Origin: a virus
Virus record (IMG/VR): IMGVR_UViG_3300050120_000073
Location: 1 to 48,009 of that record
Direction: 5' to 3' (one strand)
DNA: 48,009 bases
The translations under genes were made by a program, and so were the position numbers. Numbering within the stretch: position 1 is the stretch's first letter; each line of letters opens with the position of its first letter. The notes under the pieces are model-generated. The model saw only the letters and a program-made list of their open reading frames with translations. It had not been told where the DNA came from and made no database searches. Of this stretch, positions 1-43,761 are shown one piece after another.

Positions 1-434
1 AAGCGACTAATCCAGGCTGAGCGGTCCTGGCCGGTTAGCGTGATTTCGTACTTGCCCGCCGTTTTCTTGCTCTTGGGCTTAGTTAATCGAAATACGCCGA
101 GTGGGACCATCTCGGGCGCTCCACCCAACTGGTAGTCCACTCCTCGATAGACCTTCAACTCATTCATGGACGCTGGGTGAAGCAGGTCGCCCGCCGCCCT
201 AGGAATGAGCAAGTCCGCGAGTCGCCCCTGGCTCTCCACGGTGAGATTGAGCAGTCGGCGCACTTGCCGAGTCTCATCGATGTCCACGCTGCCGCCAATG
301 ACCACCGCACTGCCGGGAGAGCCACCGGTTAGTGACTGCAACACTGTGCCCACGGGGTTGCATATGTCTACGCGAACCACGGCCTTGTGATTCTGCATCA
401 TCGCAGCGGAAAAGGCGGAAGATACCGGATACAC
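1..434 (-). CDS. Minor tail protein, C-terminally truncated by window edge
   Basis: The open frame runs off the left edge; 144 codons are visible. I start it at a GTG (434) that overlaps the TAG stop of the upstream gene (TAGTG). The N-terminus then reads MYPVSSAFSAAM, which resembles the opening of actinophage minor tail proteins that begin with a similar hydrophobic motif. The next in-frame ATGs (401, 398) have no Shine-Dalgarno sequence. The visible part is beta-rich (VVRVDIC, YEITLTGQDRSAW) and resembles the DUF5047-type baseplate or tail-tip family. Its place after the tape measure and a large tail protein supports a tail-tip role. Its exact function cannot be told from this fragment. 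Confidence 0.6.
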   Translation of the reverse strand, partial: MYPVSSAFSAAMMQNHKAVVRVDICNPVGTVLQSLTGGSPGSAVVIGGSVDIDETRQVRRLLNLTVESQGRLADLLIPRAAGDLLHPASMNELKVYRGVDYQLGGAPEMVPLGVFRLTKPKSKKTAGKYEITLTGQDRSAWISR

Positions 435-9618: not shown

Positions 9619-9851
9619 GTTATCTCCTGTCCCGCGCCGTTGTAGGTCGGCGGCAGTTCGGTCTCGGTGGGGCTCACGGGGGCCAGTTCGGTGGCGACAT
9701 TGGCCAGGTCCCCCAGGAGCAGGACCACCTGCCCGAGGCTGTCGGCCTGGCTGCGGACGGTCGCGGTGCCTGCAGCCTCCAGTTGGGCGGTCAGCGTGGT
9801 AGCGATGGCCTGTAAGGCGGTCACGGACCCGCTGATGTCAGTTGCACTCAT
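9615..9851 (-). CDS. Small hypothetical helical protein
   Basis: A 78-residue protein, mostly one long amphipathic helix (SVTALQAIATTLTAQLEAAGTA, then SLGQVVLLLGDLANVATEL) ending in a short Pro/Thr tail. It starts at ATG 9851 with no Shine-Dalgarno sequence. Instead a TAGACT -10 box lies exactly 6 nt upstream (9858-9863), which would put the ATG at the transcript's first base. It is the first gene of the connector operon and diverges from the plus-strand gene at 9927. Function unknown. Confidence 0.6.
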   Translation of the reverse strand: MSATDISGSVTALQAIATTLTAQLEAAGTATVRSQADSLGQVVLLLGDLANVATELAPVSPTETELPPTYNGAGQEIT

Positions 9852-9857
9852 GGGTCG

Positions 9858-9863
9858 AGTCTA
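9858..9863 (-). promoter_or_regulatory. -10 box of a leaderless minus-strand promoter
   Basis: TAGACT on the minus strand is followed by 6 nt and then the ATG at 9851. A GGACAC half-site lies upstream at the place where other promoters here carry GACAA. No good -35 hexamer is present, so this promoter is weaker or needs an activator. It is divergent from the promoter at 9892-9920. Confidence 0.45.
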
Positions 9864-9891
9864 CCACCGTGTCCGGGCGGGGCGGGGGTAC

Positions 9892-9920
9892 TTGACAGAG
9901 AGACAAAGATATGGTAGACT
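9892..9920 (+). promoter_or_regulatory. Promoter with TTGAC-N5-GACAA operator
   Basis: A -35 box TTGACA (9892-9897), a 17-nt spacer and a -10 box TAGACT (9915-9920), then 6 nt to an ATG at 9927. The dyad TTGAC-AGAGA-GACAA (9892-9906) overlaps the -35 box. This is the only member of the repeated promoter family that points along the plus strand. Confidence 0.8.
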
Positions 9921-9926
9921 TAAATC

Positions 9927-10217
9927 ATGAAGTTAACCACCACAGAGGAGAACACAATGGCACAAACCGTCACCGTCTTAGGGGGGAACCTCTCCAATAA
10001 GATGGACAACAAAGGTATGACCCATATCCACGCTGCTGGGTGCGGCGACATAGGCCGCAACTACACCAAGAAGGATGTCATCGGGACGTTCGAAATCGAG
10101 AGCATCGAAGCCTACATCAAGGCTGAATGGTACGACTTCCTTGACGAAGGCTGCTCGGTTGACGAGATTTTAGCCGACTTCTACATCGCGCCCTGTGTTG
10201 AGGTGCCGATTCACTAA
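9927..10217 (+). CDS. Lone plus-strand small protein
   Basis: The only plus-strand gene found. From ATG 9927 it gives 96 residues; an in-frame ATG at 9957 preceded by GAGGAG (6-nt spacing) gives 86 residues and is probably a strong start. The first ATG falls exactly where transcription should begin. The protein has a Gly-rich start (VTVLGGNLSNKMDNKG), a GCGDIGRNY turn and an acidic C-terminal half (SIEAYIKAEWYDFLDEG, SVDEILADFY) that looks like a small alpha/beta fold. I do not recognise it. It is insulated by its own promoter and a hairpin terminator, placed between capsid and connector operons, so it can be expressed at a different time from them. Confidence 0.8.
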   Translation: MKLTTTEENTMAQTVTVLGGNLSNKMDNKGMTHIHAAGCGDIGRNYTKKDVIGTFEIESIEAYIKAEWYDFLDEGCSVDEILADFYIAPCVEVPIH

Positions 10218-10238
10218 CGCACCCCACACAAGCAACTG

Positions 10239-10261
10239 CCCCGGCGCTCATAACGCCGGGG
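10239..10261. terminator. Hairpin between convergent genes
   Basis: A perfect 8-bp stem CCCCGGCG / CGCCGGGG with a 7-nt loop lies between the stop of the plus-strand gene (10217) and the stop of the capsid gene (10290). It can serve both strands. No long U-tract follows on either side, which is common in GC-rich phages. Confidence 0.75.
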
Positions 10262-10289
10262 TAGATTACTATTTGTAAGCGGAGGTTGC

Positions 10290-11603
10290 CTACAGGGTCG
10301 CCAACACGAACCAGTCGGGGCGGTAAACCGCGAGAGCGAGACGCTCTTCGATGAGAACCGCGACCTTGTTGTTCGTGAAGTAGTCGGCGTGCTGGTCGCC
10401 CACTCGGATGCTGGCCGCGCTGCGGTCGAACAACTGCGCACCGGTCTTGAAGGAGCCCACGAGCGCCTGACCGACTGCAATTGAACGACTGCGCACTGCG
10501 GGCATGCCCCAAACGGTCTTGGGCGCATCGCCATAGGGCGAGCCCGGACCAGTGGCAACCGGCGAACCGTCGAGCCACTGAGCGTGACGCGTGGTCACCA
10601 TGGTCCAGTAGTCGAGTGGGTTCATCGCCACGCCGTCCGCGTCACCGTCCACGCTCTCAATCAATCCGATTGCGAGACCGATGGTCGCGGCGTGGTCGCC
10701 GCTGACCGCAGTCTGCGTCTGGATGTTGGGAGTATTGGTGATGCCGCGAATGTCCGCGCCATTGCCCGTGCCGTTCAGCAACTGCTCTTCCTCGCGGACC
10801 CGAATCATGTACCCGAGGCGGGCATTGATGTAGGACTGCAGAGTCGGAGCGTCTTCGAGAATCTCGGTCGTGACCGGGACCCACGCGCCAATCTTGCGCA
10901 CTGGTGCGAGGTCCTGCGTGAACAGGACTTGCACCTCGGGCTTAGGCGTACCTTCGGCCACGGACGTCGCGCCCTCTTCGTACACTCGGGGGTTGAGTTC
11001 CCGAATGTAAGGAATCGCTGCCAACTCGGTGGTGCCGGTGGCGAGCAAATCCCGCATGAAGAGGCGGCGCTGGTCGATGGCCGAGGACGGCAGGTACGGG
11101 GTGCCACGAGGGACCCACAAACCAGCCGAACCGTTCGGGTCGAGGTAAGTGCCTTCACCGATGAGGAACGGGTCCCCCGCGATGACGGACGGCGCGCGCA
11201 CTTCGATGTCAGGCGACGTGCCCGAACCGTTGCCACGCTCGCGCCACTCCTTGAAGCGCTCGTTCTCGACGACCTGCTGGCCCATCGAGCGGTGGTAGAT
11301 GCCACTACCCGATATTCCGGCCCCGGTGCCCTGCGCGCCCGCGCCCTTGCGCTCTTGCGCTTGCTGACGGAGCGTCAGCGCGGCGAGATTCCACGAGTCC
11401 ACCTCGCGCTGCTCCGCCACGCGGAGTTCCGCGTCGAGCGAGTAGACGAGGTGGGCGGAGTCCCGCATCTCCTGCGTCCACTTGTCGGACCGCTGGTCCT
11501 TGGGCTTGGTGCGCAACTCCCGTAGGTGGTTGCCCAGTTCGTAGAGGGACGTCCGCAGTTCGGCTGCGGGCTGGACCTCCAAGGTGTTTACTTCGGGTGC
11601 CAT
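10290..11603 (-). CDS. Major capsid protein, HK97 fold
   Basis: The 437-residue protein has the two-part layout of HK97 capsid precursors. Residues 1-100 are a charged helical region (LYELGNHLRELRTKPKDQ, AELRVAEQREVDSWN) acting as a built-in scaffold (delta domain) that the protease would remove. The rest shows capsid signatures: 'IPYIRELNP...EEGATSVAEGTPKPEVQVLFTQ', 'KIGAWVPVTTEILEDAPTLQSYI', 'EEEQLLNGTGNGADIRGI' and a late 'GMPAVRSRSIAVGQALVGSF'. The AEG..KP...F.......KI....P.T.E.L.D pattern is diagnostic for the Phage_capsid family. A good AGGAG ribosome site precedes the ATG. It is separated from its protease gene by the glycan cassette, which is unusual. Confidence 0.95.
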   Translation of the reverse strand: MAPEVNTLEVQPAAELRTSLYELGNHLRELRTKPKDQRSDKWTQEMRDSAHLVYSLDAELRVAEQREVDSWNLAALTLRQQAQERKGAGAQGTGAGISGSGIYHRSMGQQVVENERFKEWRERGNGSGTSPDIEVRAPSVIAGDPFLIGEGTYLDPNGSAGLWVPRGTPYLPSSAIDQRRLFMRDLLATGTTELAAIPYIRELNPRVYEEGATSVAEGTPKPEVQVLFTQDLAPVRKIGAWVPVTTEILEDAPTLQSYINARLGYMIRVREEEQLLNGTGNGADIRGITNTPNIQTQTAVSGDHAATIGLAIGLIESVDGDADGVAMNPLDYWTMVTTRHAQWLDGSPVATGPGSPYGDAPKTVWGMPAVRSRSIAVGQALVGSFKTGAQLFDRSAASIRVGDQHADYFTNNKVAVLIEERLALAVYRPDWFVLATL

Positions 11604-11662
11604 TATGGCTCCTTTTCTTGTAGGTGCTGCTCTTGCAGTCGGGTGGTCGCTATCGGCCCGTT

Positions 11663-11743
11663 TTAGGTTTCCCCGTACTCCCGCCAGCGTACTAGGTCAA
11701 AAGCGTGTCCGGTGGACGACTTGCCCACGAGACATATCTCCAT
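11663..11743 (-). CDS. Possible 26-residue ORF before the capsid gene
   Basis: ATG 11743 is preceded by GAGAAAGGC and opens a 26-codon frame (MEICLVGKSSTGHAF...). It lies in the 191-nt gap between the glycan cassette and the capsid gene. A peptide of this size may be a leader, or chance. No family is recognised. The rest of the gap holds only a hairpin. Confidence 0.25.
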   Translation of the reverse strand: MEICLVGKSSTGHAFDLVRWREYGET

Positions 11744-11772
11744 GCCTTTCTCTTGTCATCGAGCCCAGTTTG

Positions 11773-11786
11773 GGGGCGCTTGCCCC
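11773..11786. terminator. Hairpin after the glycan cassette
   Basis: GGGGC-gctt-GCCCC forms a compact stem just beyond the stop of the gene at 11795, with GCCC/GGGC outside it as a possible extension. It may end the minus-strand transcript of the cassette before the capsid gene. No U-tract is present. Confidence 0.45.
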
Positions 11787-11794
11787 TCACGGGC

Positions 11795-12430
11795 CTACGA
11801 GCGGAAAAGAGACAAATCGGGCCACCCCGGAAGGAGGTCGTCTACGAGAGGGTTCTTGCTACCTAGCCAGGTTTCGCCAAACCATCGATTCTCATAGGAA
11901 GGTTCATCGAGCCTACGCACGTAAGTGGCCTTGGCCCACCACCAGTTACCCCCGAAGAACGGGGTATCCACATTATCGGGCCACTCCTCCTTGGACAGCC
12001 AATGGCACCCCACGGCGTCTACCGGCTCCAACCTCCTAAGACACTCCCGCCACCCCTGCACTACTACGGCCTCCATCGAGCGCCGCCAGGCTACGTTGAT
12101 TTCGCTGGGGTCGTGCACACCTTTGGTGTGCGCATATAATATCGCGCCCTCTCGGTTTTGTATGTGCTCCCACACTCTAATCATCGAGAGCGTGGCTTGC
12201 TCCCAACCCGAATAACAGTAACGCACTACGTTGACGCTGCTTACCCTCTCGCTGCAAAAGTCGTAGACTCGCTCTTGTTCTTCACGCGTGCTGGCGACGA
12301 TGCCAACTCGAAAGCCATCATGATCGAGTGCGTCCATTAGGCCGCTCTCGGTCAGTGCGGTCAGGTGTTCTTCGACGACGTCCTCCCAACCCTCGACGGC
12401 GTAGATGTGGTAGTAGTGGCGAAGGTTCAT
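11795..12430 (-). CDS. Glycosyltransferase-like protein
   Basis: A 211-residue protein. It shows the pattern of a family seen in viruses and bacteria that are annotated as glycosyltransferases: 'LYAHTKGVHDPSEINVAWRRSMEAV' (the HTKG and the later WRR..E element) and 'TPFFGGNWWWAKATYVRRL' (GNWWWA acceptor loop). The N-terminal part (YHIYAVEGWEDVVEEHL) matches the opening of the same family. It is the last gene of the sugar cassette and overlaps the upstream gene by 4 nt. It probably adds a sugar to a virion protein or glycan. Donor and acceptor are unknown. Confidence 0.7.
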   Translation of the reverse strand: MNLRHYYHIYAVEGWEDVVEEHLTALTESGLMDALDHDGFRVGIVASTREEQERVYDFCSERVSSVNVVRYCYSGWEQATLSMIRVWEHIQNREGAILYAHTKGVHDPSEINVAWRRSMEAVVVQGWRECLRRLEPVDAVGCHWLSKEEWPDNVDTPFFGGNWWWAKATYVRRLDEPSYENRWFGETWLGSKNPLVDDLLPGWPDLSLFRS

Positions 12431-12936
12431 GCGGTGGCTCGATACTTAATCATGTAGCCGGTGTCGTGCGGCACGTTGTTACGTCCGTGCAACTGCACGG
12501 CCTCGCCCCACTCTTGCTTGTGGTCAAAGCAGGTGACTGCACCGGCTGCGGCTTGATAGCCGAGCGTCCAGCCCCATTCGCCCAAATAGATGGAATCGTG
12601 CTTGTTGTAGACACGAGGCACACCGACTGCCTCTAGTGCCCATCGATCATATACGCCCATGTGGCACGAGTAGTGCATGTGGGCGGCATGATTGAGGCAA
12701 ATCGACCCCGGTGTGACCGCGATGCGGTCGAACACCGTGGAGTCAGTGATGACCATTGAATCCTGCAAGAAGACGAGTCGGTCAAAGCGCTCGTTATCCA
12801 AGCACCAGCGAATGACGCCGAGTTCGAACTCCCCCTCGCGGCTGACTACTATGTGCGGTCGTTTGATTGACGCCGACGCATCGCGCACCCATTCTTCACG
12901 ACCGTCCGCTGTGCCCACTACGATAAGGTCAATCAC
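12427..12936 (-). CDS. Glycosyltransferase-fold protein
   Basis: A 169-residue protein with a beta-strand start (MIDLIVVGTADGREEWV), then 'RWCLDNERFDRLVFLQDSMVITD' where the LVFLQDS segment occupies the place of the DxD-containing strand of GT-A enzymes, although only one Asp is present. Later there is 'LGEWGWTLGYQ'. The order of elements fits a small GT-A-like enzyme. Both ends overlap neighbours by a few bases, as in a translationally coupled operon. The missing DxD means it may be metal-independent, non-catalytic or a different fold; the call rests partly on context. Confidence 0.5.
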   Translation of the reverse strand: MIDLIVVGTADGREEWVRDASASIKRPHIVVSREGEFELGVIRWCLDNERFDRLVFLQDSMVITDSTVFDRIAVTPGSICLNHAAHMHYSCHMGVYDRWALEAVGVPRVYNKHDSIYLGEWGWTLGYQAAAGAVTCFDHKQEWGEAVQLHGRNNVPHDTGYMIKYRATA

Positions 12937-13336
12937 GGTGCGTCTTCACGATGGTGCTACTGATGTCGGGTACCAGGGGTACGTAGACCACGCCAATCCG
13001 GTGTTCGTCGAGCCAATCCTGCGTGACGCCGAGTTGGCCTAGGTAGTCGCGGCGCGCCCAATCCGAACCAATAACTAGATACTCCGGCGTTCGCGTCTCG
13101 ATAAAGTGGCCGGTATCGCCCGAGTGCAGGGTGGCCGCGCCGTATGCTTCTACTTGTCGCAAACGCGAATATTCGGGCACCCAAGGAAGAGCGCCCTTAT
13201 ATGACTCCACGAACTCGTCGCTATTAACTCCAATCATCACGGTGCCATGCTTACCGGCTAGAGCGCGACAACGTCGAAATAGGTCGATATGGCCTTCATG
13301 CAATAAGTCGAAAGTACCGACAGTGAGGATTCGCAC
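12929..13336 (-). CDS. Cytidylyltransferase (TagD-like nucleotidyltransferase)
   Basis: A 135-residue protein, the usual size of glycerol-3-phosphate cytidylyltransferases. The N-terminus reads 'ILTVGTFDLLHEGHIDLFRRCRAL', with the HxGH nucleotide-binding motif as HEGH. The late 'PDISSTIVK' corresponds to the ISST phosphate-binding loop. The reaction would be CTP + sugar- or polyol-phosphate to CDP-activated product plus diphosphate. Within this cassette it would supply an activated donor to the neighbouring transferases. Substrate cannot be read from sequence; related enzymes use glycerol-3-phosphate, heptose or ethanolamine phosphates. Confidence 0.88.
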   Translation of the reverse strand: MRILTVGTFDLLHEGHIDLFRRCRALAGKHGTVMIGVNSDEFVESYKGALPWVPEYSRLRQVEAYGAATLHSGDTGHFIETRTPEYLVIGSDWARRDYLGQLGVTQDWLDEHRIGVVYVPLVPDISSTIVKTHRD

Positions 13337-13893
13337 TACGCCTTCCTTAAGAAAACGATTTGCGGGTAGATGTGTACCTCACTCACCTCGCCAAGTTCTT
13401 GCAGCAGCAGGTCGATAGTGTCGTGCAGTCGGTCGCTGGCCACGCTCCCTTTGACCGGGTCACCCAACCACACCGGATGCCACTGCACCGCCAGGTCTTC
13501 AATCACGTACCACCCGCCCGGCATGATGTACGGCCACAATCGGTCGCACGCCGCCACGACGTCGGTGCCCAGGTGGCTACCATCGTCGATAATGATGTCG
13601 TACGGGCGGTCGGGTTCAAAGTCTTTGACGTCTCCCAAAGTCACACGTACGCGTTCATCATCGAACACTAAGTCAGCGCAGGCCGGGTCGATGTCCACGC
13701 CTTGAATGGAGCCCGCAGGGTGATAGAAGTAGTCGGCCCACAAACGCAACGAGCCACCGTGATACACCCCGATTTCGAGCAGGTTAACGGGCTCCCCGCG
13801 CAGTTCCGCGAAGTGGCGTTCGTAGTGCGGACAGTAGCCGTGCTCCCACTTGTCTGTCCCGTGATGCGCGGCCATCCGTTCCATTGCCGTCAT
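13336..13893 (-). CDS. Class I SAM-dependent methyltransferase (sugar O-methyltransferase type)
   Basis: A 185-residue protein beginning 'MAAHHGTDKWEHGYCPHYERHF', the characteristic opening of the macrocin/mycinose-type sugar O-methyltransferases and CmcI relatives. The SAM site follows as 'LLEIGVYHGGSLRLWADYF' (motif I, EIGxxxGGS) and 'IQGVDIDPAC' (acidic loop). 'DIIIDDGSHLGTDVVAACDRLWPYIMPGGWYVIEDL' holds the D..DGSH metal/active-site segment. It would methylate a sugar hydroxyl on the virion glycan or a nucleotide sugar. It overlaps its neighbours by 1 to 4 nt. Confidence 0.88.
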   Translation of the reverse strand: MTAMERMAAHHGTDKWEHGYCPHYERHFAELRGEPVNLLEIGVYHGGSLRLWADYFYHPAGSIQGVDIDPACADLVFDDERVRVTLGDVKDFEPDRPYDIIIDDGSHLGTDVVAACDRLWPYIMPGGWYVIEDLAVQWHPVWLGDPVKGSVASDRLHDTIDLLLQELGEVSEVHIYPQIVFLRKA

Positions 13894-14972
13894 TTGTTGC
13901 TGCTCCTTTGTTGGTGGTGGTTCTTCACAGCCTGTTCCCAGGCGCTAGCCCATCGATGGGCCTGCTTCTCGTAGGTGAGACTCGCAGCGATTTCCCTCCC
14001 GTGGCCCCTCGTTTGCTCTCGGAGGTCACGGCTGGCCAGCAGGGCACTGAGGTGCCGATGCCATTGGTGGGGGTACTGGGCGAGCAACCCAGCGCCCAAT
14101 CGAGAAAGACTCTCATACTGTTGCGTGGGGGAGGCAATGAAGGGCACACCGAGAGCGGCATACTCTAGCCCCTTGAGCCACGACTTGGATTCGTTGAATG
14201 CATTGAGTCGCAAGGGTACCAGGCCGATATCAAGACCCGCCACCACCGCAGGGTAGTTCTCTAACTGGATAGGTGGCGAATAAGCCGACTCTCCAGCGTC
14301 GAACCCGAGCATGCGACCGGTGGCCTGCGAACCAATGGTGAAGAACACTGCGCTCTCGTCGCCCCGCACGGCCCGTACCACGGCGTCCCCCACCGTCTCC
14401 AGGTCGCGCGGGTGGGTGGCGGGATTGCCGGTCCAGCCCACTATCGTGCGCCCTTCCATCAGTGCCCACGCGTCCCCCGGACTTACTTCCGTCGTAAGGT
14501 AGGACTCGGGCACGTAGTTGGGAAGGACGCGAACGCGACCACGTGCGGCAGGCGTCTCTTGGGCGAGCGTCGGCGTGCTTACCGTGACCAAGTCCGCGAG
14601 ACTGCAGGCGCGGGCCAGATGCGCAGGCGACCGCGTACTCGGATTGGTCGGGTGCAGGTAGGCGACGTTCTGGCGGTCGATGTTCCAGAAGTCGTCGTCG
14701 AACTCGACCACGACCGCGCTACCGTTGGCCTGAATAAAGGGGATAGCCTCGACGATGTGTTGGTCGAGTGGTCGCTGGAAGATGACGACGTCGTAATCGA
14801 GCGGGGCCACGCTGATGACGTGTCCGTCCGCCCATCCGCACAGAATGGACGCGCCGTTCTCGTCGAGCGCCACCTCGATATCGGGTTCCATCGATTGTAG
14901 CGCATGGGCGGGCGCGAGTAGACGATAGAACCCGCACCCGCCCAGGTCGGCATTGACGATTAAGACGCGCAC
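13890..14972 (-). CDS. GT-B glycosyltransferase (group 1 type)
   Basis: I start at GTG 14972 (VRVLIVNADLGGCGFYRLL), which overlaps the preceding stop by 13 nt; longer ATG starts run through the upstream gene. The 360-residue product has a GT-B layout: N-terminal Rossmann start 'VLIVNADLGGCGFYRLLAPAHAL', an inter-domain 'VVVEFDDDFWNI', then 'IVGWTGNPATHPRDLETV' opening the second domain and 'DIGLVPLRLNAFNESKSWLKGLEYAALGVPFIAS', the E-x7-E-like donor phosphate element (LEYAALGVP). It is the first committed gene of the cassette. The sugar donor is unknown. Confidence 0.85.
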   Translation of the reverse strand: MRVLIVNADLGGCGFYRLLAPAHALQSMEPDIEVALDENGASILCGWADGHVISVAPLDYDVVIFQRPLDQHIVEAIPFIQANGSAVVVEFDDDFWNIDRQNVAYLHPTNPSTRSPAHLARACSLADLVTVSTPTLAQETPAARGRVRVLPNYVPESYLTTEVSPGDAWALMEGRTIVGWTGNPATHPRDLETVGDAVVRAVRGDESAVFFTIGSQATGRMLGFDAGESAYSPPIQLENYPAVVAGLDIGLVPLRLNAFNESKSWLKGLEYAALGVPFIASPTQQYESLSRLGAGLLAQYPHQWHRHLSALLASRDLREQTRGHGREIAASLTYEKQAHRWASAWEQAVKNHHQQRSSNK

Positions 14973-15229
14973 AGCGGCTCCAGTTCTGGCCAGTCGTAGC
15001 CGTACCCCAGCATTACCGGTTGAATCGAGCGCCCCGGCCCCTCGGGGTCGCGATTGAGTAACCGTGACTCGTAGCGATAGCGCGCGAGGTCGAAATCGAT
15101 GTAGTGCTCCGCACATTCGCGTTTGACGCGCTGCAAGCACCACTCTTCGAATGTGGCCTTGTCGTCGGGCAAATGCATGACCGAATACTCGCACTCTACC
15201 CTGATATTGAACAAGTTGTGATGAGCCAT
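14960..15229 (-). CDS. Hypothetical protein opening the glycan cassette
   Basis: An 89-residue protein, acidic and aromatic (MAHHNLFNIRVECEYSV, YIDFDLARYRYESRLLN). No family is recognised. ATG 15229 lies 5 nt after a TAGACT -10 box, with no ribosome site, so the message is probably leaderless. It overlaps the glycosyltransferase start, indicating coupled translation, and so may be an accessory factor of the cassette. Confidence 0.6.
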   Translation of the reverse strand: MAHHNLFNIRVECEYSVMHLPDDKATFEEWCLQRVKRECAEHYIDFDLARYRYESRLLNRDPEGPGRSIQPVMLGYGYDWPELEPLCAS

Positions 15230-15234
15230 GCGCC

Positions 15235-15264
15235 AGTCTAGCGCAGGATTTGCCTATTCGGCAC
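15235..15264 (-). promoter_or_regulatory. Promoter of the glycan cassette, degenerate operator
   Basis: The -10 box TAGACT (15235-15240) is 18 nt from a poor -35 hexamer GTGCCG (15259-15264). The dyad reads TTGCC-TATTC-GGCAC on the plus strand, one mismatch from the family TTGNC-N5-GNCAA. It would drive 15229 to 11795. Confidence 0.55.
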
Positions 15265-15271
15265 GGACATG

Positions 15272-15544
15272 TTAGAACCTCCGCACGATTGCGGTGGTGA
15301 TGCCGTTAGTGACGCTGCGGCTGATGGTGAATCCCGCACTCTGCAAAACAACGATGGCCTCGGCCACCAGCAACTCGCTGGTGTATTCAATGTTCTGCGC
15401 GTAGACCGCGACGGCGTCTAAGCCGTAGTCTTCGACGGACAAGAACGGCGACGTGTTGACCAGGTCGCCCAATGCTCGCTCGACGGCTCCGGTGGTGGTG
15501 GTGGTCATGGTCTTGGCTCCTTGTGCGGTAGTCTGGTTCTTCAT
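15272..15544 (-). CDS. Small protein behind a dual-start promoter
   Basis: A 90-residue protein from ATG 15544, or 78 residues from the in-frame ATG 15508 that has an AAGGAG ribosome site. The first 12 residues (MKNQTTAQGAKT) are the Thr/Lys-rich extension seen on several genes of this phage. The rest is a short alpha/beta protein (VYAQNIEYTSELLVAEAIVVLQSAGFTISR). I do not recognise it. It has its own promoter and sits between the glycan cassette and the decoration gene. Confidence 0.7.
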   Translation of the reverse strand: MKNQTTAQGAKTMTTTTTGAVERALGDLVNTSPFLSVEDYGLDAVAVYAQNIEYTSELLVAEAIVVLQSAGFTISRSVTNGITTAIVRRF

Positions 15545-15550
15545 ATCCCC

Positions 15551-15579
15551 AGTCTATCACCCATTTGTCCCCGTGTCAA
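15551..15579 (-). promoter_or_regulatory. Promoter with TTGAC-N5-GACAA operator
   Basis: On the minus strand: TTGACA, 17-nt spacer, TAGACT, 6 nt, then ATG 15544. The dyad occupies 15565-15579. The -35 through GGGGACAAAT segment is identical to that of the promoter at 42920-42949. Confidence 0.82.
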
Positions 15580-15613
15580 GTACCCGGTCAAACCGGCCCC
15601 GGATACAGCGAGA

Positions 15614-15631
15614 CCCCGCCCGAAGGCGGGG
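15614..15631 (-). terminator. GC-rich hairpin with UUCG-type loop
   Basis: CCCCGCC-cgaa-GGCGGGG lies 35 nt beyond the stop of the gene at 15666. On the minus-strand transcript the loop is UUCG, the very stable tetraloop. It separates the head operon from the following promoter. There is no U-tract. Confidence 0.65.
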
Positions 15632-15665
15632 CCGCTGCCGTGTTCGAGTTGGGGTGCCCTCGCGA

Positions 15666-16124
15666 CTAAGCGCCAAACCAGTTCGTGCCGTCCGAGTAAA
15701 ACGCCTTCTTGGTGTACTGCGTGGTCACAGTCACCGACGCCGCGCCGTTGACGAGCGAACCCGCAGGAGCGGTAACGGTGCAGGTGATGCTCGCGCCATT
15801 GCTAATGACGTCCACCTTCGCGCCGATTTGTGGCGCGGGCAACGTGACCGCGCCAGTCACCGTGGTGAGGACAACGTCGCCGTTCACGGCCTGGTACGTC
15901 GCTTCGTTCAAGGCGATGAAGTGACCGGTTCCGGGTACCAGGTTGCCGTCGCTGGCGATGAGCGCCCAGTAGGTACCTACCGTGTCACCCGATGGGTCGT
16001 TGCCCGTCGAGCCTGACGCGTTGATGCACTCGTACTTGTAGCCCTCAAAATCGACTACATCGTACTGCGCGTACGCGGTGCCAACGGCCCACGGTCCGCG
16101 CAGGTTTGCTGTGTTAACGCCCAT
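15666..16124 (-). CDS. Decoration-like protein with carbohydrate-binding module
   Basis: A 152-residue protein. The N-terminal half 'GPWAVGTAYAQYDVVDFEGYKYECINA...TYWALI' matches the CBM5/12 (ChiC) pattern: W..GTAY..YDVV...G..Y.C......W. The C-terminal half is a Thr/Val-rich beta domain of the type ending in 'AFYSDGTNWFGA', common in phage fibres and capsid decoration proteins. It lies right after the prohead protease, where decoration proteins are usually encoded. It would give the capsid or a fibre affinity for polysaccharide. A good GGAG ribosome site precedes the ATG. Confidence 0.7.
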   Translation of the reverse strand: MGVNTANLRGPWAVGTAYAQYDVVDFEGYKYECINASGSTGNDPSGDTVGTYWALIASDGNLVPGTGHFIALNEATYQAVNGDVVLTTVTGAVTLPAPQIGAKVDVISNGASITCTVTAPAGSLVNGAASVTVTTQYTKKAFYSDGTNWFGA

Positions 16125-16167
16125 TTACTGCTCCTTAAGGTTGAGGTTGATAGGACCTATCGCCCGC

Positions 16168-16179
16168 CAGCCTAGCACG
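16168..16179 (-). promoter_or_regulatory. Shared extended -10 element (late promoter candidate)
   Basis: The minus strand reads CGTGCTAGGCTG, containing an extended -10 (TGC-TAGGCT). The same 12-mer occurs at 25907-25918, also just upstream of a structural gene. A GATAGG-N-CCTATC inverted repeat (16149-16161) follows it and may be an operator. No clear -35 is seen. Confidence 0.4.
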
Positions 16180-16203
16180 ACGCACGTAGAACGAGTGGAC
16201 TAC

Positions 16204-17385
16204 TTACCAGCCGCGCGAAGCGAGTTGCGCCATTACGCGGTCGGCTTCGGTTTCTGCGGCGAGATGAGCGTTGCGAACTTCGATTTCGGCCTGGTTGCGT
16301 GCCTCCGTAGCCGCATCCTCTTCTGCGGCTAGCGCAGTCTCGCGCTGTTCATCAGTCATCGCGGCCCACACTTCGACGGTGAAGTCGTCGCTACGTCCCG
16401 CGTTAACCGCCGTCTTAGGCAAGACCTTGCCGTCACCCTTGCATACTGGGCATTTGCGGTTACCGCGCAGGATGGTGCCCTTGCCCTTGCACACTGGGCA
16501 TTGCACGGCGTTGGGGGCGGTGCTGCGTCGTTCAGCGTCTCGCGCCGCGCGCATCGGTGCGTCGTCGGGGTCTCCCACGTCGAGCGCGTCGAGCAGTGCG
16601 TCACACGCGGACTCTGCGAGTCCCACCAGTGCCAACGCTTGGCTGTTGTCGTCGCTGGTAGGGGTGGTCAACTCCGCACGGATAGCATCCACCGCAGCGT
16701 CCACGTTGCTGGCCAAGTCCACGATGTCACTGGGCAGCACCTGCGAGCCCGTGTCGCCCGCTGGGTGCGCTAGTGCGTCGCGCGTCTCAGCCAAGGCGTC
16801 GGTCAGCGACAGTTCGCCCGTAGCCATGCGCAATAGCACGCCCGCCACCACGTCGGCTTGCGAGCCCCGAGTCCCGGACAGAGTGATTAGCCCCGTTCCT
16901 GCGTTGCTGGCTTCGACCACAATGCTAACCTCCGGTAGTTGGTACTGCGTGATGATGGTGAATGAGTCGGTTGGGTCGCGTTGGTCCATCTCGCGAATGA
17001 ACCCGACGCTGAACGAGTCGAACGTGCCGGATTGCAGTTGCGCGTACGCCTGCCGAGCAGCGGGCACAGCGTCGAAATCGTCGAACTCCATAAGGACGTC
17101 GAGCCCAGTGTTGTCCTCGCGCCAGTCCACCGCATGCCCGAGCACCGAGTGAATGCCGCCCTGCATGCCGTGCCCGTACAGAAACGTTGGGCGGTTGGGA
17201 TGCGCGTCCATGTAGGCTTTGCAGCCGCCCGGCGCAAACCGCGTGCCGTAGGTGTCGGTCTGCGTGTAGTCGTTGACTCGAATCCACGCCTGTGCGGGTA
17301 CGCCGTCGCCTGCGGCGCGGGTCTCCAGGACCCGGCACTTAACTACGCGATGCTCAACGCTTCGGCGCTCTAGGGTCTTTGTCAT
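16204..17385 (-). CDS. Prohead protease with DnaJ-type zinc finger
   Basis: A 393-residue protein with three parts. Residues 1-175 match HK97 prohead proteases (U35): 'WIRVNDYTQTDTYGTRFAPGG', 'PTFLYGHGMQGGIHSVLGHAV' with the active-site His region, and 'QSGTFDSFSVGFI' carrying the catalytic Ser segment. A linker follows, then 'CPVCKGKG' and 'CPVCKGDG' (about residues 294-320), two CxxCxGxG units as in the DnaJ zinc finger, and a charged helical tail (RETALAAEEDAATEARNQAEIEVRN). The protease matures the capsid; the zinc finger might bind the scaffold or portal. GGAGG sits before the ATG. Confidence 0.88.
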   Translation of the reverse strand: MTKTLERRSVEHRVVKCRVLETRAAGDGVPAQAWIRVNDYTQTDTYGTRFAPGGCKAYMDAHPNRPTFLYGHGMQGGIHSVLGHAVDWREDNTGLDVLMEFDDFDAVPAARQAYAQLQSGTFDSFSVGFIREMDQRDPTDSFTIITQYQLPEVSIVVEASNAGTGLITLSGTRGSQADVVAGVLLRMATGELSLTDALAETRDALAHPAGDTGSQVLPSDIVDLASNVDAAVDAIRAELTTPTSDDNSQALALVGLAESACDALLDALDVGDPDDAPMRAARDAERRSTAPNAVQCPVCKGKGTILRGNRKCPVCKGDGKVLPKTAVNAGRSDDFTVEVWAAMTDEQRETALAAEEDAATEARNQAEIEVRNAHLAAETEADRVMAQLASRGW

Positions 17386-17425
17386 GATTCCTCCAGTGTA
17401 GCAGTAGTGGGAGAGACGAAGTGGG

Positions 17426-19795
17426 CTACTCCCATAGCCCGTCGCGTAACCCCCGCAAGTCGAAACGGGTCTCCATCTTGTTGGCCGAGCGACCGCTAAA
17501 CTCCGCAGGGGTCAGGATGCCGAGAGTGCATCGGCATTGGATAACGTTCTCGGGCGAGCCCGCTGGGTCGCCGGGGTATTGCAAGTCCTCGCCATCTACG
17601 CTAAACGGGTCGCCGCAAGCCACCTGCTGGCCGTCTGCTGCCTCGTGTGCCGCCCGCGTATGGTCGTCCAATTCCGCTATCCATTCTTCGCCCGCCGCCA
17701 CGTCGCTAGGCAGGGAGTTCGCGATTTGGTCGGTAGCGCCGTTGTACGCGCCGATGACCTCCGTGCGCGCAATCATCACGGCGCGGCTAGTCGTCGCCAC
17801 GTCGAAGACGTTTTGAATGCGCGAGGCAATCTGCGGTATCGACTCGCCCGCTTGCGCGCCTTCATCCATCTGGTTCTGTATGGCGTCGTAGGTCGAGTCC
17901 GTGACCGACCCCGCCAACTGATTGGCCCGCGCATCGATGAAGTCTTGCGCCTGCGGGTCCTTGACGTTGTAACCGTAGATGTCACCGGTCGAGTTTTGGT
18001 AGAGCGTACCTATTTTCGCGTTAGCGGCTTCACCGGCTGCAGTCGCGATAACGGCGTACTGTCCGCGCATCGCGTCAGCGGTCTCGGCTGCCCAGTGCTT
18101 CTTATCGAATACCTTAGACGCGTCCTTGCGAGTCTCCAGGTCACGGCCACGCCGGCCACCCAAGCGCGCGAGTACGGACGTCTCCTGCTTCTTGAACACT
18201 AGCGTGATGGCGTCGGCAAAGATAGGCTCCATGCTGGCCACCTTCTTGTCCACCGCTCGCCACTCCACCTCGCGAACCTCACGAGTGCGCCCGCGAATCT
18301 CCACCAGTTCAGCGGCGAGTTTTCCTATGGGCGCACCGGGGGGCAAGGCGGCAGGCGGGCCGTCGCCCGTCCCCACGCCCGGCTTATCGGTGGGGGCTTT
18401 GCCGTCGCCCACCGGTAGGTCGCTCGGGGTAGCGCCAGGACGTAACGCGGGCGGGATATTGGCGAGTTTCTGCGCCGCGAGTTTCGCCTCATTGACTGGG
18501 TCGTCTGGTCGCTCTTCGGGCAGGCCCAACTCGCTGCGGAACTCGCTGGTGGCGATGGGCAGGCCCGAGCCCACCATCAATGGCAGGATGGCCCCGAGCG
18601 CGAGCAGGCGCGAGTCCGACTGCAGCGCCTTAATCTGCGAAAAGTCGAACCAGCCCACCTCGTTGCCGAAGCGCGGGGCGAGTTGCATGTTGATTTCGTC
18701 AGCGATTTCGAAGCACAGCGGCTGCAGCGTACCCTCCCACCAGTTACGGTGCTCGACGTTGGCCGCGTCGTAGGTGCGCTTGCTGGAGTCACCAAGAATC
18801 GACATCGGCGTGCCCAGGGCCACGCAAATCTCGGCTATCTTCTGCTCGTAACGAGCAATGAATTGGCCGTCGCGCTGCGAGAGACCTAAGGTCTTGACGT
18901 CGATTGCGCCCGCCACTCCCCCCGGACCGTCGCCCATTGATTGAATAAACAGCGCTTTGCCCGCGTTGTCCGGTCCGCGAAAGTCGCCGCGAAAAGCGCG
19001 GATGAAGGCGTCGCGCTCCTGGTCGAGATTGAATGCCTCGTGCACTACTATGGCCGCAGGTCGTGCGTCGTTGCGCAGGAACGCGAAGTCGTAGCGGTCC
19101 TGCATGACGGCGACCGAGACGCCGAGTCTCGCGGCCATGAGCGCCGACTCGGGCTGGCGAAAGTCGTGCTGTGAGGGTCGCCACCCGTAGAACACTTGGT
19201 CGGGTTGCATGTCCACTATCTTGTTCTTGTCCGCCGAGGGCTTGCCGTACGCGTAGCCGGTGAAGTACGCGTTGCCCCCGCTACTGGGCTTGGGGTGCAG
19301 GGCGCACGATACCAGGGGCCAGAGGTTGGCGATGTCGCCTTGACCGCCCGGCTCCGTGCCCTCGATTTCCCAAGCGTACTTGCCAGTTATCATGTACTGG
19401 GCCACGGTCCAGGCAAACAGACGACGCGCCGACACGCCGGGCGCGGGACCGCCGGGGGGCGGCGAGAGCAATACCGCCATGGGTGCCTTGGGGTCGAAAA
19501 TGTCCGGTTTCTCGGGGTCGCTACCTACGCGGAAGGCCAGCCCACCGATGGCCGTGGCGCACGCTTGCACGCAGCGGTAAACAAAGACGTTGGAGTAGTA
19601 CGCGAGTCGAATCGCTTCGTCGGCGTTCCACTCCGACACCATGGTCTTGCTCATAGCGGCGTACGGCGATATGGAGTTGGTGGCTGCGCTAGGGTCGCGG
19701 ATTTCGATACTAGAGCCTCCCAGTCGCTCCATTGCCGACGAGAGCGCCCGTTGCTCCCCGGATATCACCGACCGGATTCGTTCTAACGCGCTCAT
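17426..19795 (-). CDS. Portal protein fused to MuF-type minor head protein
   Basis: The 789 residues hold two proteins. Residues 1-450 match HK97-type portals: 'SNVFVYRCVQACATAIGGLAFRV', 'MITGKYAWEIEG', 'DQVFYGWRPS', 'IAEICVALGTPMSILGDSSKRTYDAANVEHRNWWEGTLQPL'. After a Pro/Gly linker (about 450-520) comes a Phage_Mu_F-like domain ending 'AVMIARTEVIGAYNGATDQIAN', 'WIAELDDHTRAAHEAADGQQV' and 'SPENVIQCRCTLGI', the R.E....N, D.R....H..L.G and P....CRC pattern of MuF. Portal and MuF are usually separate genes. The start overlaps the terminase stop (ATGA). Confidence 0.92.
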   Translation of the reverse strand: MSALERIRSVISGEQRALSSAMERLGGSSIEIRDPSAATNSISPYAAMSKTMVSEWNADEAIRLAYYSNVFVYRCVQACATAIGGLAFRVGSDPEKPDIFDPKAPMAVLLSPPPGGPAPGVSARRLFAWTVAQYMITGKYAWEIEGTEPGGQGDIANLWPLVSCALHPKPSSGGNAYFTGYAYGKPSADKNKIVDMQPDQVFYGWRPSQHDFRQPESALMAARLGVSVAVMQDRYDFAFLRNDARPAAIVVHEAFNLDQERDAFIRAFRGDFRGPDNAGKALFIQSMGDGPGGVAGAIDVKTLGLSQRDGQFIARYEQKIAEICVALGTPMSILGDSSKRTYDAANVEHRNWWEGTLQPLCFEIADEINMQLAPRFGNEVGWFDFSQIKALQSDSRLLALGAILPLMVGSGLPIATSEFRSELGLPEERPDDPVNEAKLAAQKLANIPPALRPGATPSDLPVGDGKAPTDKPGVGTGDGPPAALPPGAPIGKLAAELVEIRGRTREVREVEWRAVDKKVASMEPIFADAITLVFKKQETSVLARLGGRRGRDLETRKDASKVFDKKHWAAETADAMRGQYAVIATAAGEAANAKIGTLYQNSTGDIYGYNVKDPQAQDFIDARANQLAGSVTDSTYDAIQNQMDEGAQAGESIPQIASRIQNVFDVATTSRAVMIARTEVIGAYNGATDQIANSLPSDVAAGEEWIAELDDHTRAAHEAADGQQVACGDPFSVDGEDLQYPGDPAGSPENVIQCRCTLGILTPAEFSGRSANKMETRFDLRGLRDGLWE

Positions 19796-21171
19796 CGTAT
19801 TGAGTATCCCAACTGTCGGCCTTGCTTGCGTAAGAGGAGTTCGCTAAAAGCGTACACCTCTGCATCCATTCGGTTGGGGGATGCCTGCCCTTTTTGCTTC
19901 GGTATCCACGACGTCCATTCGTCTTCCAGTTTCGGGAAGTTGCCGACGTAGTGAATGAGTCCCTGCTCGTGCAGCCCAGCCACGGGCTCCGCGCGTACGT
20001 CCTTGCCTCGACTCGCGGTTATCTGCTTAAATCGTGGCATTTGCAGCCCGCGTGCCGTCGTCACCGAGCGCAGCGTTACTTCGACGAGGTCCCCGCCATT
20101 GTTTACTTCCGCAATGATGCGGTCGGCTTCATACTGGTCATACAGGTCTAGCGCGAGCCCCGCCCACTTCTCACCTTTCATGCGACCCGAGCGGTCGTCG
20201 AGCAAATAGCCGTGATTGTCCTCGCCTAGCGCCGCCACGATGATGCCCGCTTCGTCCGACTCGCGCTGCCTCTTGCCAGTCAACGCGTTGCGCGCGGGGT
20301 TGTCGGACACTGACGGGTCGATACTCACCAGCAGCGCGATAAGGTCGGCCACGTCCACGTAGGCGTTGTTCTCGATTTCTTGGTGCATAGGCACCGACGT
20401 CACGCGGTTGGCGTCGATGACGCTCTGCTTGAGCAACGCACCGTCCACGTCCTCCAGGATTTCGGCGTCCAACTCCTGGCGGCCCAGTCGTGTGCCTATG
20501 TAAGGCAGGATGACGCGGCTGTAGTATTTCTTGCTGAGGTTGGCTTCGTTGTCCTTGCTCCGTCCTTTGGTGATGACGTCGGCCTGCGCTATCAGGAACT
20601 TGATAAACGGTGTGGCTTTCGGCGTGCCGGTTACGCAGATACGCGGGTCGCCCTTGCGCATCATGAACTGCAGGGTATCCCAAGTCTCTTGACCGAAACG
20701 CCACGACGCGGGCTCGTCGCACCACGCCGAGCGGACGTTAGGTCCACGCACGCCGTCCGGTTTCTCCGCCGTGTAGGTGTCGGCGCGTGCTCCGCCCCGT
20801 ATCTTGAAGTGGCCTAGTGAGCGGTTCCAATCCACGCGCATCTTGCGATTCTCGGCGCAGGCCAGTAGTCCGGATTCGCCCTCCACCATCGTGTCGCGCG
20901 TCTCGTCGGTGTTGGCCCCGATGACGGCGTAGCGGTAGTAGGGAAAGGCGCTCATCTCGTCGAGCAGCCACTCGGCCCCGGTGCGCGTCTTGCCCCAACC
21001 ACGACCGGCGAGGATGAACCACAGATACCAGTCGGCGGGAGTGGTGGGCGCGCACTGCGAAGGGCGGCGCACCGAGCGCCACGACTGCATGCCCTGGCTA
21101 ATCTCCTCCAGCGAGAACTGCGGGTCGAGTTGGTCGGCGGCGAGTTCGAAAGGGCTAAGTAGCAGGCTCAT
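19792..21171 (-). CDS. Terminase large subunit
   Basis: I start at ATG 21171 (MSLLLSPFELAADQL), overlapping the preceding stop as ATGA; the upstream extension is out of character. The 459-residue protein has the ATPase motifs: Walker A 'AGRGWGKT' (residues 55-62), Walker B/DE 'RSAWCDEPA', and the coupling segment 'ICVTGTPKATPFIKFL'. The nuclease domain has 'LLVSIDPSVSD' as the first acidic strand, 'ADRIIAEVNNGGDLVEVTLRS' and 'PNRMDAEVYAFSEL' near the end. It packages DNA into the prohead and cuts concatemers. The Walker A form GRGWGKT is typical of the Terminase_6 group. Confidence 0.96.
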   Translation of the reverse strand: MSLLLSPFELAADQLDPQFSLEEISQGMQSWRSVRRPSQCAPTTPADWYLWFILAGRGWGKTRTGAEWLLDEMSAFPYYRYAVIGANTDETRDTMVEGESGLLACAENRKMRVDWNRSLGHFKIRGGARADTYTAEKPDGVRGPNVRSAWCDEPASWRFGQETWDTLQFMMRKGDPRICVTGTPKATPFIKFLIAQADVITKGRSKDNEANLSKKYYSRVILPYIGTRLGRQELDAEILEDVDGALLKQSVIDANRVTSVPMHQEIENNAYVDVADLIALLVSIDPSVSDNPARNALTGKRQRESDEAGIIVAALGEDNHGYLLDDRSGRMKGEKWAGLALDLYDQYEADRIIAEVNNGGDLVEVTLRSVTTARGLQMPRFKQITASRGKDVRAEPVAGLHEQGLIHYVGNFPKLEDEWTSWIPKQKGQASPNRMDAEVYAFSELLLRKQGRQLGYSIR

Positions 21172-21497
21172 ATGACCGTAACGGTGCCCGCGCGAATGAT
21201 GGGCGTCTCGGGCGAGTCGGCGAACTTGAGCCACACAGCGTAGGTGGACCCCAGCACCAGCGCCGATTCGTCGCCAGCCGGTCCCACCAGGCACCGCGCC
21301 GTCCACACCACCGGGCCTCCACCCGGTACCCACGACGCCGTGACCCAGGTGGCAGTGCCGTCGGGGCTCGAACTCAGGTCTTTCCAGAAGGTGAACTGCA
21401 CCGTATCGGTGGACGGGTCGCCGACCAGAGCCACGTCGTTGACTCGCACGTCACAGTACACGTACTCGGTCGAGAGCGCGGGTAGGTTCATTTTCAT
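21168..21497 (-). CDS. Hypothetical beta-rich structural protein
   Basis: A 109-residue protein between the repeat protein and the terminase, with 4-nt overlaps to the latter. It is beta-rich (EYVYCDVRVNDVALVGDPSTDTVQFTFWKD, STYAVWLKFADSPETPIIRAGTVTVI). The pattern resembles small Ig-like proteins that pair with phage fibres. The ending 'TPIIRAGTVTVI' is common in such modules. Position after fibre-type genes suggests a virion role, not shown directly. Confidence 0.6.
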   Translation of the reverse strand: MKMNLPALSTEYVYCDVRVNDVALVGDPSTDTVQFTFWKDLSSSPDGTATWVTASWVPGGGPVVWTARCLVGPAGDESALVLGSTYAVWLKFADSPETPIIRAGTVTVI

Positions 21498-27434: not shown

Positions 27435-27463
27435 AGTCTACCACACCCTTGTCACAGAGTCAA
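27435..27463 (-). promoter_or_regulatory. Promoter with TTGAC-N5-GACAA operator
   Basis: Minus strand: TTGACT, 17-nt spacer, TAGACT. The dyad TTGTC-ACAGA-GTCAA occupies 27449-27463 on the plus strand. It drives the small-gene cluster that includes the Rpf-like and WhiB genes. Confidence 0.8.
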
Positions 27464-29932: not shown

Positions 29933-30419
29933 TCGGCCAACCTCCCACTTCCCGAGCCCTAATGCCCATCGCTGCGTACACGTGTAGGTCCAGCCACGAA
30001 TCGTCCGATGGTAGGCGTCCGTCCTTGTACGCCCCGATGATGCGCGTAATCTTGCCCAGCGAGTAAAACGCGATGGCGATTTCGGCAGCGTTCACCTGCG
30101 GGTGTGCCTTCTCGTTGAAGCAGTCGGCCAAGATGTTGCCCATATAGGCTAGGTCGTCGCCTCCGTACTCCTGCGCCTTGTCCATGGTCTGGTCGAACTC
30201 TCGCCTCGCCAGACCTAACCACCAATCCGCGAGTTCTCGCTGCGGCTGCGTTGGTCGCGCCGCTACGGGCTCTTCGCTGTGCCATGACAAGTCTCGAAAC
30301 TCCACGACGGGAGTCGATATCACTGGCTCCGGTTGCTTGGCGGCGTTGTGCACGCAGCAGCGCCCCTCCTCGTCGCGCTCGGTCATTCCGTGACACGTTA
30401 TGCAATATAGCGTGCTCAT
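29922..30419 (-). CDS. MazG/DUF1599-like protein with zinc knuckle (MazZ candidate)
   Basis: I use ATG 30419 (MSTLYCITCHG), overlapping the PurZ-type stop as ATGA. The 165 residues hold an N-terminal zinc knuckle (CITC...CCVH) and a C-terminal helical domain (about 75-165). There 'MDKAQEYGGDDLAYMGNILADCF', 'EIAIAFYSLGKITRIIGAYKDG' and 'DSWLDLHVYAAMG' match the nucleotide-modification-associated DUF1599 / MazG-type all-alpha NTP pyrophosphohydrolases: KA.EYG, E...Y.LGK..R and D..DL..Y. In Z-genome phages a MazG-like enzyme (MazZ) turns dGTP into dGMP for PurZ. Adjacency to the PurA-family gene makes that role plausible; substrate is inference. Confidence 0.65.
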   Translation of the reverse strand: MSTLYCITCHGMTERDEEGRCCVHNAAKQPEPVISTPVVEFRDLSWHSEEPVAARPTQPQRELADWWLGLARREFDQTMDKAQEYGGDDLAYMGNILADCFNEKAHPQVNAAEIAIAFYSLGKITRIIGAYKDGRLPSDDSWLDLHVYAAMGIRAREVGGWPNGN

Positions 30420-43732: not shown

Positions 43733-43761
43733 AGTCTACCACCCCTTTGTCTCCGCGTCAA
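43733..43761 (-). promoter_or_regulatory. Promoter with TTGAC-N5-GACAA operator
   Basis: Minus strand: TTGACG, 17-nt spacer, TAGACT, 6 nt, ATG 43726. Dyad at 43747-43761. The region from -10 to the ribosome site (TAGACTTAAA.CATGA, then TTAACCACCACAG) matches the plus-strand promoter at 9915-9945. Confidence 0.83.

Follow-up and report, generated by a model that had tools for sequence, protein, structure and literature searches.

Why would a phage place a set of glycan-type genes between the genes for its prohead protease and its major capsid protein? The question is raised by the viral record IMGVR_UViG_3300050120_000073, which was analyzed over its whole length of 48,009 nucleotides (positions 1-48,009; hereafter, the window). 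The virus is known from its sequence only, and the record may be incomplete, so that absences from it are weak evidence. The window is organized like the genome of a tailed phage: a minus-strand run of head and tail genes leads from the large terminase gene past the tape measure gene and ends in an open reading frame (ORF) with weak similarity to minor tail proteins, and replication genes lie at 30-46 kb. Between the protease and capsid genes are six ORFs, encoding an 89-residue hypothetical protein, a glycosyltransferase of the GT-B fold, a sugar O-methyltransferase-like protein, a cytidylyl/adenylyltransferase-like (CTPT-like) protein, and two proteins of 169 and 211 residues (Table 1). All five junctions among them overlap, by 13, 4, 1, 8, and 4 nucleotides, and 191 nucleotides separate the 211-residue gene from the capsid gene. 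The initial annotation had described coupled glycan-type genes at this place, and this description is borne out by the open frames, the overlaps, profile or model support, and recurrence in relatives; chance ORFs were ruled out, since related contigs carry homologs in the corresponding position. It is likely that this cassette is a cytosolic module for the glycosylation of virion proteins, with tailoring genes that can be swapped.

Recurrence was examined in relatives that were found by scans with the capsid protein and thus were not selected for any glycan gene (relatives from the homology scans are denoted by L-numbers, which refer to loci or contigs). Of the 10 such loci, L014 starts within the capsid gene, and the slot between protease and capsid can be read in the other 9. 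The slot contains a GT-B gene in eight of the nine readable relatives (42-76% capsid identity). In L009-L013, of which L012 and L013 appear to represent a single phage, the GT-B gene is found without any other recognized cassette gene, and in L009, L012, and L013 the GT-B protein (315-316 residues) was detected by iterative search only. The slot of L002 and L003 holds the GT-B, CTPT-like, and 169-residue genes, and that of L004 holds GT-B together with an unassigned 252-residue protein, another methyltransferase, and an NAD-dependent epimerase. Two further loci, found through GT-B, carry GT-B, the methyltransferase, and the 211-residue protein (L016) or the methyltransferase, the CTPT-like protein, the 169- and 211-residue proteins, and GT-B (L050). 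The methyltransferase and 211-residue genes are absent from L002-L004, and these genes have likely been exchanged between phages. No relative was confirmed by the capsid scan of genome contigs, and for that reason no host is assigned.

Table 1. Features of the window, with the evidence for each; coordinates are positions in the window
Feature	Position	Strand	Evidence or remark
Prohead protease, Peptidase_S78	16204-17385	-	Profile match; cassette flank
89-residue hypothetical protein, first cassette gene	14960-15229	-	Relatives directly upstream of or adjoining GT-B in L002, L003, L016
GT-B (GT4-like) glycosyltransferase, 360 residues, conserved cassette core	13890-14972	-	PHROG 7162, Pfam Glyco_trans_1_2
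Sugar O-methyltransferase-like protein (MycE/demethylmacrocin O-methyltransferase type), 185 residues	13336-13893	-	PF13578, PDB 3ssm, 8ia9
CTPT-like protein, 135 residues	12929-13336	-	PF01467, TIGR00125, HEGH motif
169-residue GT-A-fold protein, probable transferase	12427-12936	-	AlphaFold model, CTPT adjacency
211-residue GT-A-fold protein, probable glycosyltransferase	11795-12430	-	AlphaFold model, GT-B fusions
Major capsid protein, Phage_capsid PF05065	10290-11603	-	E 3e-32; cassette flank, candidate acceptor
152-residue Ser/Thr-rich (18%) protein	15666-16124	-	Weak CBM5/12 and tail-fiber similarity; possible decoration protein and acceptor
90-residue hypothetical ORF	15272-15544	-	6 nucleotides after the element at 15551-15579, 42 nucleotides upstream of the 89-residue gene; cassette membership uncertain
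Element copy, promoter/operator-like	9892-9920	+	Part of the moron-like unit
Element copy, promoter/operator-like	15551-15579	-	Also among the two sigma-70 sites
Element copy, promoter/operator-like	27435-27463	-
Element copy, promoter/operator-like	43733-43761	-
Shorter element form, TGnTAGACT	9858-9866	-
Moron-like unit	9892-10264	+	Rightward, inside the leftward head-tail run
96-residue ORF of the moron-like unit	9927-10217	+
Terminator-like hairpin of the moron-like unit	10236-10264
ORF at the end of the head-tail run	434-2971	-	Weak minor-tail similarity
Tape measure	2971-5853	-
Large terminase	19792-21333	-
819-residue ORF upstream of terminase	21502-23961	-
PurZ-like protein	30416-31462	-	PHROG 1211, E 3e-64
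PolA-type polymerase	32560-34401

The divergence of the GT-B protein was then compared with that of the head proteins. Pairwise GT-B distances correlate with capsid distances (r = 0.78 for n = 15; Mantel P = 0.0001, the lowest value attainable with 9,999 permutations), and comparable values were obtained for capsid and portal (r = 0.77, n = 14), capsid and terminase (0.77, n = 8), and capsid and protease (0.78, n = 15), as well as for GT-B and portal (0.86) and GT-B and protease (0.82). The set was chosen by hand and consists of the window and 14 loci with both genes, 7 of which were selected through GT-B; left out were the near-duplicates L012, L017, and L080, the loci L026, L027, L054, L056, L057, L059, and L063, and L014 and L015, where no GT-B was seen. 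Because its divergence tracks that of the capsid in the same way as portal and protease do, GT-B behaves as a member of the head module; with a set partly chosen through GT-B and a comparison confined to head genes, the distances speak for joint descent and do not bear on function. A recent foreign insertion of GT-B was ruled out, given that GT-B distances parallel those between head proteins; base composition was also checked, and G+C content in 2-kb windows over the cassette region is 0.578-0.619, with the minimum at 12001-14000, versus 0.61-0.63 on either side. The presence of GT-B in the head slot of eight of the nine relatives and its co-divergence with the capsid make glycosylation of the capsid or a decoration protein, as suggested in the initial annotation, the most plausible reading.

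Distance to the capsid gene provides a weaker test than the slot. PF05065 capsid genes were found in the records of 19 of the 65 GT-B loci; 12 of these 19 GT-B genes lie within 6 kb of the capsid gene, and all 19 are on its strand. Among the 13 of these 19 that are in records of at least 20 kb, 7 have the gene within 6 kb of the capsid gene versus 3.4 expected (P = 0.027), with L080 scored as far even though its contig may be a circular permutation. In the family of the 211-residue protein, a PF05065 match is present in 8 of the 16 loci (one below the cut-off), all 8 within 6 kb; 4 of those 8 are in records of at least 20 kb, versus 1.5 expected (P = 0.016), and the other 8 loci have no PF05065 match. 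Several records look like near-duplicates (L016/L017, L012/L013, L048/L080, and L093/L095), so that not all counts are independent.

The assignment of the individual enzymes is of uneven depth. The GT-B gene probably starts at the GTG at 14972, because relatives align from about residue 75 of a longer ORF. On that longer ORF, it matches the glycosyltransferase family PHROG 7162 (E = 1e-40) and scores just above the cut-off of Pfam Glyco_trans_1_2; a weak profile match was also obtained to the solved “predicted glycosyltransferases” 3c4q (E = 0.0045) and 3c48, which we take to be MshA, a GT4 enzyme. Scans of viral contigs with GT-B as a single query gave no matches. The methyltransferase matches PF13578 above the cut-off (E = 1e-10), and its best solved relatives are PDB 3ssm (E = 2.7e-22), presumably MycE, and demethylmacrocin O-methyltransferase 8ia9 (E = 5e-20). 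The similarity extends over ∼130 residues and includes the signature of the MycE type, with DDGSH and IED motifs (presumably the metal and base residues of such enzymes) that align with those of 3ssm and 8ia9; the known enzymes, however, are about 400 residues long compared with the 185 residues of the phage protein. MycE and demethylmacrocin O-methyltransferase methylate a sugar that is already attached to an antibiotic.

The CTPT-like protein matches PF01467 (E = 4e-14) and TIGR00125, both above the cut-off, carries the HEGH motif, and probably makes an activated donor, as judged from these similarities. The model of heptose-1-phosphate adenylyltransferase (TIGR02199; E = 2e-11, 43.8 bits, cut-off 181.5) fits it slightly better than that of glycerol-3-phosphate cytidylyltransferase (TIGR01518; E = 9e-9, 35.6 bits, cut-off 165.4), and it was not assigned to the TagD type. 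Because these specific models score far below their cut-offs, the substrate is left unassigned, and the CDP-activated sugar or polyol of the initial annotation is not established.

The 169- and 211-residue proteins, initially described as glycosyltransferase-like, reach no better than E = 0.07 with any Pfam or PHROG family, and no match to PF00535 (glycosyltransferase family 2) was found in the record at E = 0.001; yet their AlphaFold models are predicted to adopt GT-A folds. The models were built from alignments of 5 (169-residue) and 16 (211-residue) sequences and reached a best mean pLDDT of 81 and 94.9, respectively; the fold of the 169-residue protein is the less certain of the two because its five models range from pLDDT 81 to 36. 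Comparison of both models with VIA-align retrieved GT-A glycosyltransferases and related nucleotidyltransferases. The best match of the 169-residue model is 6p61 (Z = 11.6, root mean square deviation 2.5 over 139 residues), with Z = 11.3 for TarS and TarP, and that of the 211-residue model is heparosan synthase 2 (Z = 13.5, root mean square deviation 3.2 over 173 residues). Foldseek E values are modest (best, 1.6e-4 and 9.6e-5, respectively), and because several GT-A families tie, no assignment closer than the GT-A fold was made. The PBCV-1 capsid glycosyltransferase (2p73, 2p6w), which we take to be A064R, also has a GT-A fold, is described as glycosylating the viral capsid, and is a Foldseek match to the 169-residue model (rank 34, E = 0.004); however, identity is 9-10%, many other GT-A enzymes match equally or better, and it is not among the 50 VIA matches listed.

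The 211-residue domain is fused N terminally to a GT-B domain in four contigs (L092, L094, L096, and L098); in L092, the PHROG 7162 match spans residues 216-523 of 533. This family has invariant YxHxK, WR, and GN.W motifs, and its strand at residues 96-101 ends in the invariant YxHxK, which in the model may sit about where GT-A enzymes carry DxD, a correspondence drawn by position rather than by alignment. The gene is located just upstream of the capsid gene in the window and L016 and ∼2 kb downstream (midpoint to midpoint) in L088, L090, L093, and L095, and the protein matches five records of the phages collection, cyanophage and uncultured. For the 169-residue protein, there was no match in that collection and none in scans of viral contigs with it as a single query. 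Its gene adjoins the CTPT-like gene in all five phages with a full-length copy (the window, L002, L003, L050, and L092), which suggests that one makes the donor used by the other; the CTPT-like gene also occurs without it, in L038 and L070. A prophage-like region in a Solirubrobacterales metagenome-assembled genome (L099, 818-10312) has a relative of the 211-residue protein, a glycosyltransferase, and an epimerase interspersed among matches to capsid and tail genes.

How might such a module work? The gene content, coupling, position, recurrence, co-divergence, predicted GT-A folds, and domain fusion are established, and the following scheme can be proposed alongside them. The soluble GT-B would move a host nucleotide-sugar onto a virion protein or prime its glycan, with the capsid or another head protein as the most likely acceptor, before or during assembly. 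The 211-residue GT-A enzyme would extend or complete the glycan, the MycE-type enzyme would O-methylate a hydroxyl of the already attached sugar, and the CTPT-like enzyme would supply an activated donor to be added by the 169-residue GT-A enzyme. GT-B would be the conserved core, whereas tailoring genes swapped between relatives would alter the glycan. There are no membrane-like segments in the cassette: averaged over 19 residues, the highest Kyte-Doolittle value in any of the five enzymes is 1.32, and the usual threshold for membrane segments is 1.6. The enzymes are therefore expected to be cytosolic and to share the compartment in which virion proteins are synthesized and put together. A further candidate acceptor is the Ser/Thr-rich protein encoded next to the cassette; it is present in L002 and L003 but was not detected in L016, although that locus carries GT-B, the methyltransferase, and the 211-residue protein.

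The idea of virion glycosylation is known from mycobacteriophages, and the enzyme set found here appears to be different. In Corndog, an O-methyltransferase gene (gp35) and three glycosyltransferase genes (gp36-38) lie between portal and protease, and the authors of the report on it (PMC4351075) proposed capsid modification; gp38 and Che8 gp110 are reported essential for capsid glycosylation in a passage that cites later work (PMC12363180). The resemblance, drawn by description and not by sequence, is the insertion of an O-methyltransferase gene with several glycosyltransferase genes in the head operon; in contrast, the Corndog slot is portal-protease rather than protease-capsid, and no CTPT-like gene is among the four genes named. 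Che8 gp108-110 likewise combine several glycosyltransferases with a methyltransferase domain (PF13578; in gp108 it is joined to a GT2 domain), but these genes are near the right genome end and have GT2- and GT25-type domains. In the prophage prophiFSAT01-1, a homolog of the window methyltransferase directly adjoins a Che8 gp110 homolog (45% identity), and this methyltransferase family is therefore tied to a probable virion-glycan locus. For Rhodococcus cluster CB phages, virion glycosylation has also been deduced from a glycosyltransferase and methyltransferase pair (PMC13313380); this likeness, too, is one of description and not of sequence, and in Peregrin the two genes (60 and 49) are apart. 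The closest items that the literature search retrieved were the cluster O paper and papers in which Freeman 2023 is cited, and the accessible parts of PMC13252515 and PMC10893344 hold nothing decisive on the cassette. By analogy, the cassette may work like the Corndog/Che8 system, without implying membership by descent; its glycosyltransferases are predicted to be phage-encoded soluble enzymes, GT-B by profile and the two GT-A proteins by model.

Several observations weigh against virion glycosylation. The cassette is known from genes alone, and we infer all activities, the order of the steps, the donor, and the acceptor. The C terminus of the capsid protein is short and conserved and lacks an extended tail, the reported place of attachment in mycobacteriophages (PMC12619734). 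L015 has a 377-base slot without GT-B, and GT-B is thus not essential to this head type; the co-divergence test compared head genes only and had no non-head control. The records of 46 of the 65 GT-B loci have no PF05065 match, many of them being fragments or having other capsid types; in L059 and L063, GT-B lies 25-29 kb away from the capsid gene; and GT-B relatives occur in 141 phage records, 104 of them Escherichia phages, as counted by record and not by position. Che8 gp108-110 gave no match to the cassette proteins, that is, homology to the Che8 enzymes was not found, and in mycobacteriophage MaryV a homolog of the methyltransferase has small hypothetical genes as neighbors and is not on the strand that carries terminase and portal.

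These observations have to be weighed together with other possible roles. Superinfection exclusion, also considered in the initial annotation, would involve alteration of a cell-wall polymer or a cytosolic lipid-linked precursor in the infected or lysogenic cell, to which phages would then no longer adsorb. The 169-residue model resembles many enzymes, including the wall-teichoic-acid glycosyltransferases TarS and TarP, which would fit such a role, and the CTPT-like protein could make CDP-glycerol. However, the cassette lacks membrane-like segments, the possibly incomplete record has neither a GtrA (PF04138) match, which would point to a Gtr cassette, nor a tyrosine integrase, and GT-B sits in the head operon, co-diverges with head proteins, and occupies the head slot in eight of nine relatives, so that we consider modification of the host surface unlikely. 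The same recurrence and co-divergence, along with the tight gene overlaps, argue against a set of cargo or moron genes that lacks any fixed function in the virion, for example, one that glycosylates small molecules for host metabolism from a permissive gap in the head operon. Phages often carry morons, the tailoring genes vary between relatives, and one relative's slot is without GT-B; still, we regard this explanation as quite improbable.

Finally, GT-B could glycosylate modified bases of the phage genome. Phage GT-B enzymes acting on DNA are known, and this genome encodes a PurZ-like protein, so that an unusual base may be present in its DNA already. Conversely, the record has no match to the thymidylate synthase/hydroxymethylase family (PF00303), the cassette lies among head genes and away from the replication genes, and the methyltransferase resembles antibiotic-sugar methylases; DNA hypermodification by the cassette is accordingly very improbable. 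The PurZ-like protein itself, encoded near the polymerase gene, matches the NCBIfam PurZ model with E = 4e-72 (243 bits versus a cut-off of 300) and has GSEGKG at the site where PurA has GDEGKG; from these similarities, the genome may be of the 2-aminoadenine (Z) type.

Expression of the cassette was addressed through its upstream region, where the initial annotation had placed an operator-type promoter. A generic sigma-70 scan of 9800-17500 found no excess of sites (2 versus 2.1 expected). By contrast, the window holds four copies of the element TTGAC-(15-20)-TAGACT, whereas 100 shuffles average 0.05 copies and never exceed 1; when the motif was tightened with the spacer bases conserved among those four sites, it again retrieved these four in the window and nothing in shuffles. 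Three of the four end 6 nucleotides before an ATG, whereas the copy at 27435 has no ATG within 14 nucleotides; with the shorter TGnTAGACT form included, four of five places end 6 nucleotides before an ATG. This spacing suggests that the transcripts are leaderless and start from a shared promoter, possibly under repressor control. Thus, a recurrent element does stand upstream of the cassette, but it directly precedes the extra 90-residue ORF, which has no significant Pfam or PHROG family match, and not the first cassette ORF. Ahead of the latter, only TAGACTGG is found, at 15233-15240; this signal is weak because 2 of 100 shuffles also reach the 3 such words present in the window. Another copy of the element opens the moron-like unit, where it is followed by the 96-residue ORF and the hairpin.

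Two other features lie in or next to the head genes. In its C-terminal part, at about residues 292-319, the prohead protease has a CxxCxGxG motif like that of DnaJ (PF00684, under the cut-off with E = 2e-4), and a similar stretch is found in the L002 protease. For the 819-residue ORF, searches of PHROG and Pfam gave nothing at E = 0.01, and AT skew switches sign across it.

What would virion glycosylation mean beyond this phage? A broader proposal, which we advance tentatively and hold to be doubtful, is that capsid glycosylation is a near-core, vertically inherited head-module trait of the lineage, independent of the mycobacteriophage systems, in which GT-B primes and exchangeable tailoring sets vary the coat glycan; in such a lineage, the CTPT-like/GT-A pair may add a phospho-polyol or heptose unit. 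Two GT-A families without a prior assignment gain a predicted role and a partner. If the proposal is true, virion glycosylation would have persisted as a trait across a broader phage lineage, carried out by unrelated enzymes, and would not be an extra of some mycobacteriophages only, and the role of a coat glycan in protection, adsorption, or evasion of surface-binding defenses could be tested for an environmental phage.

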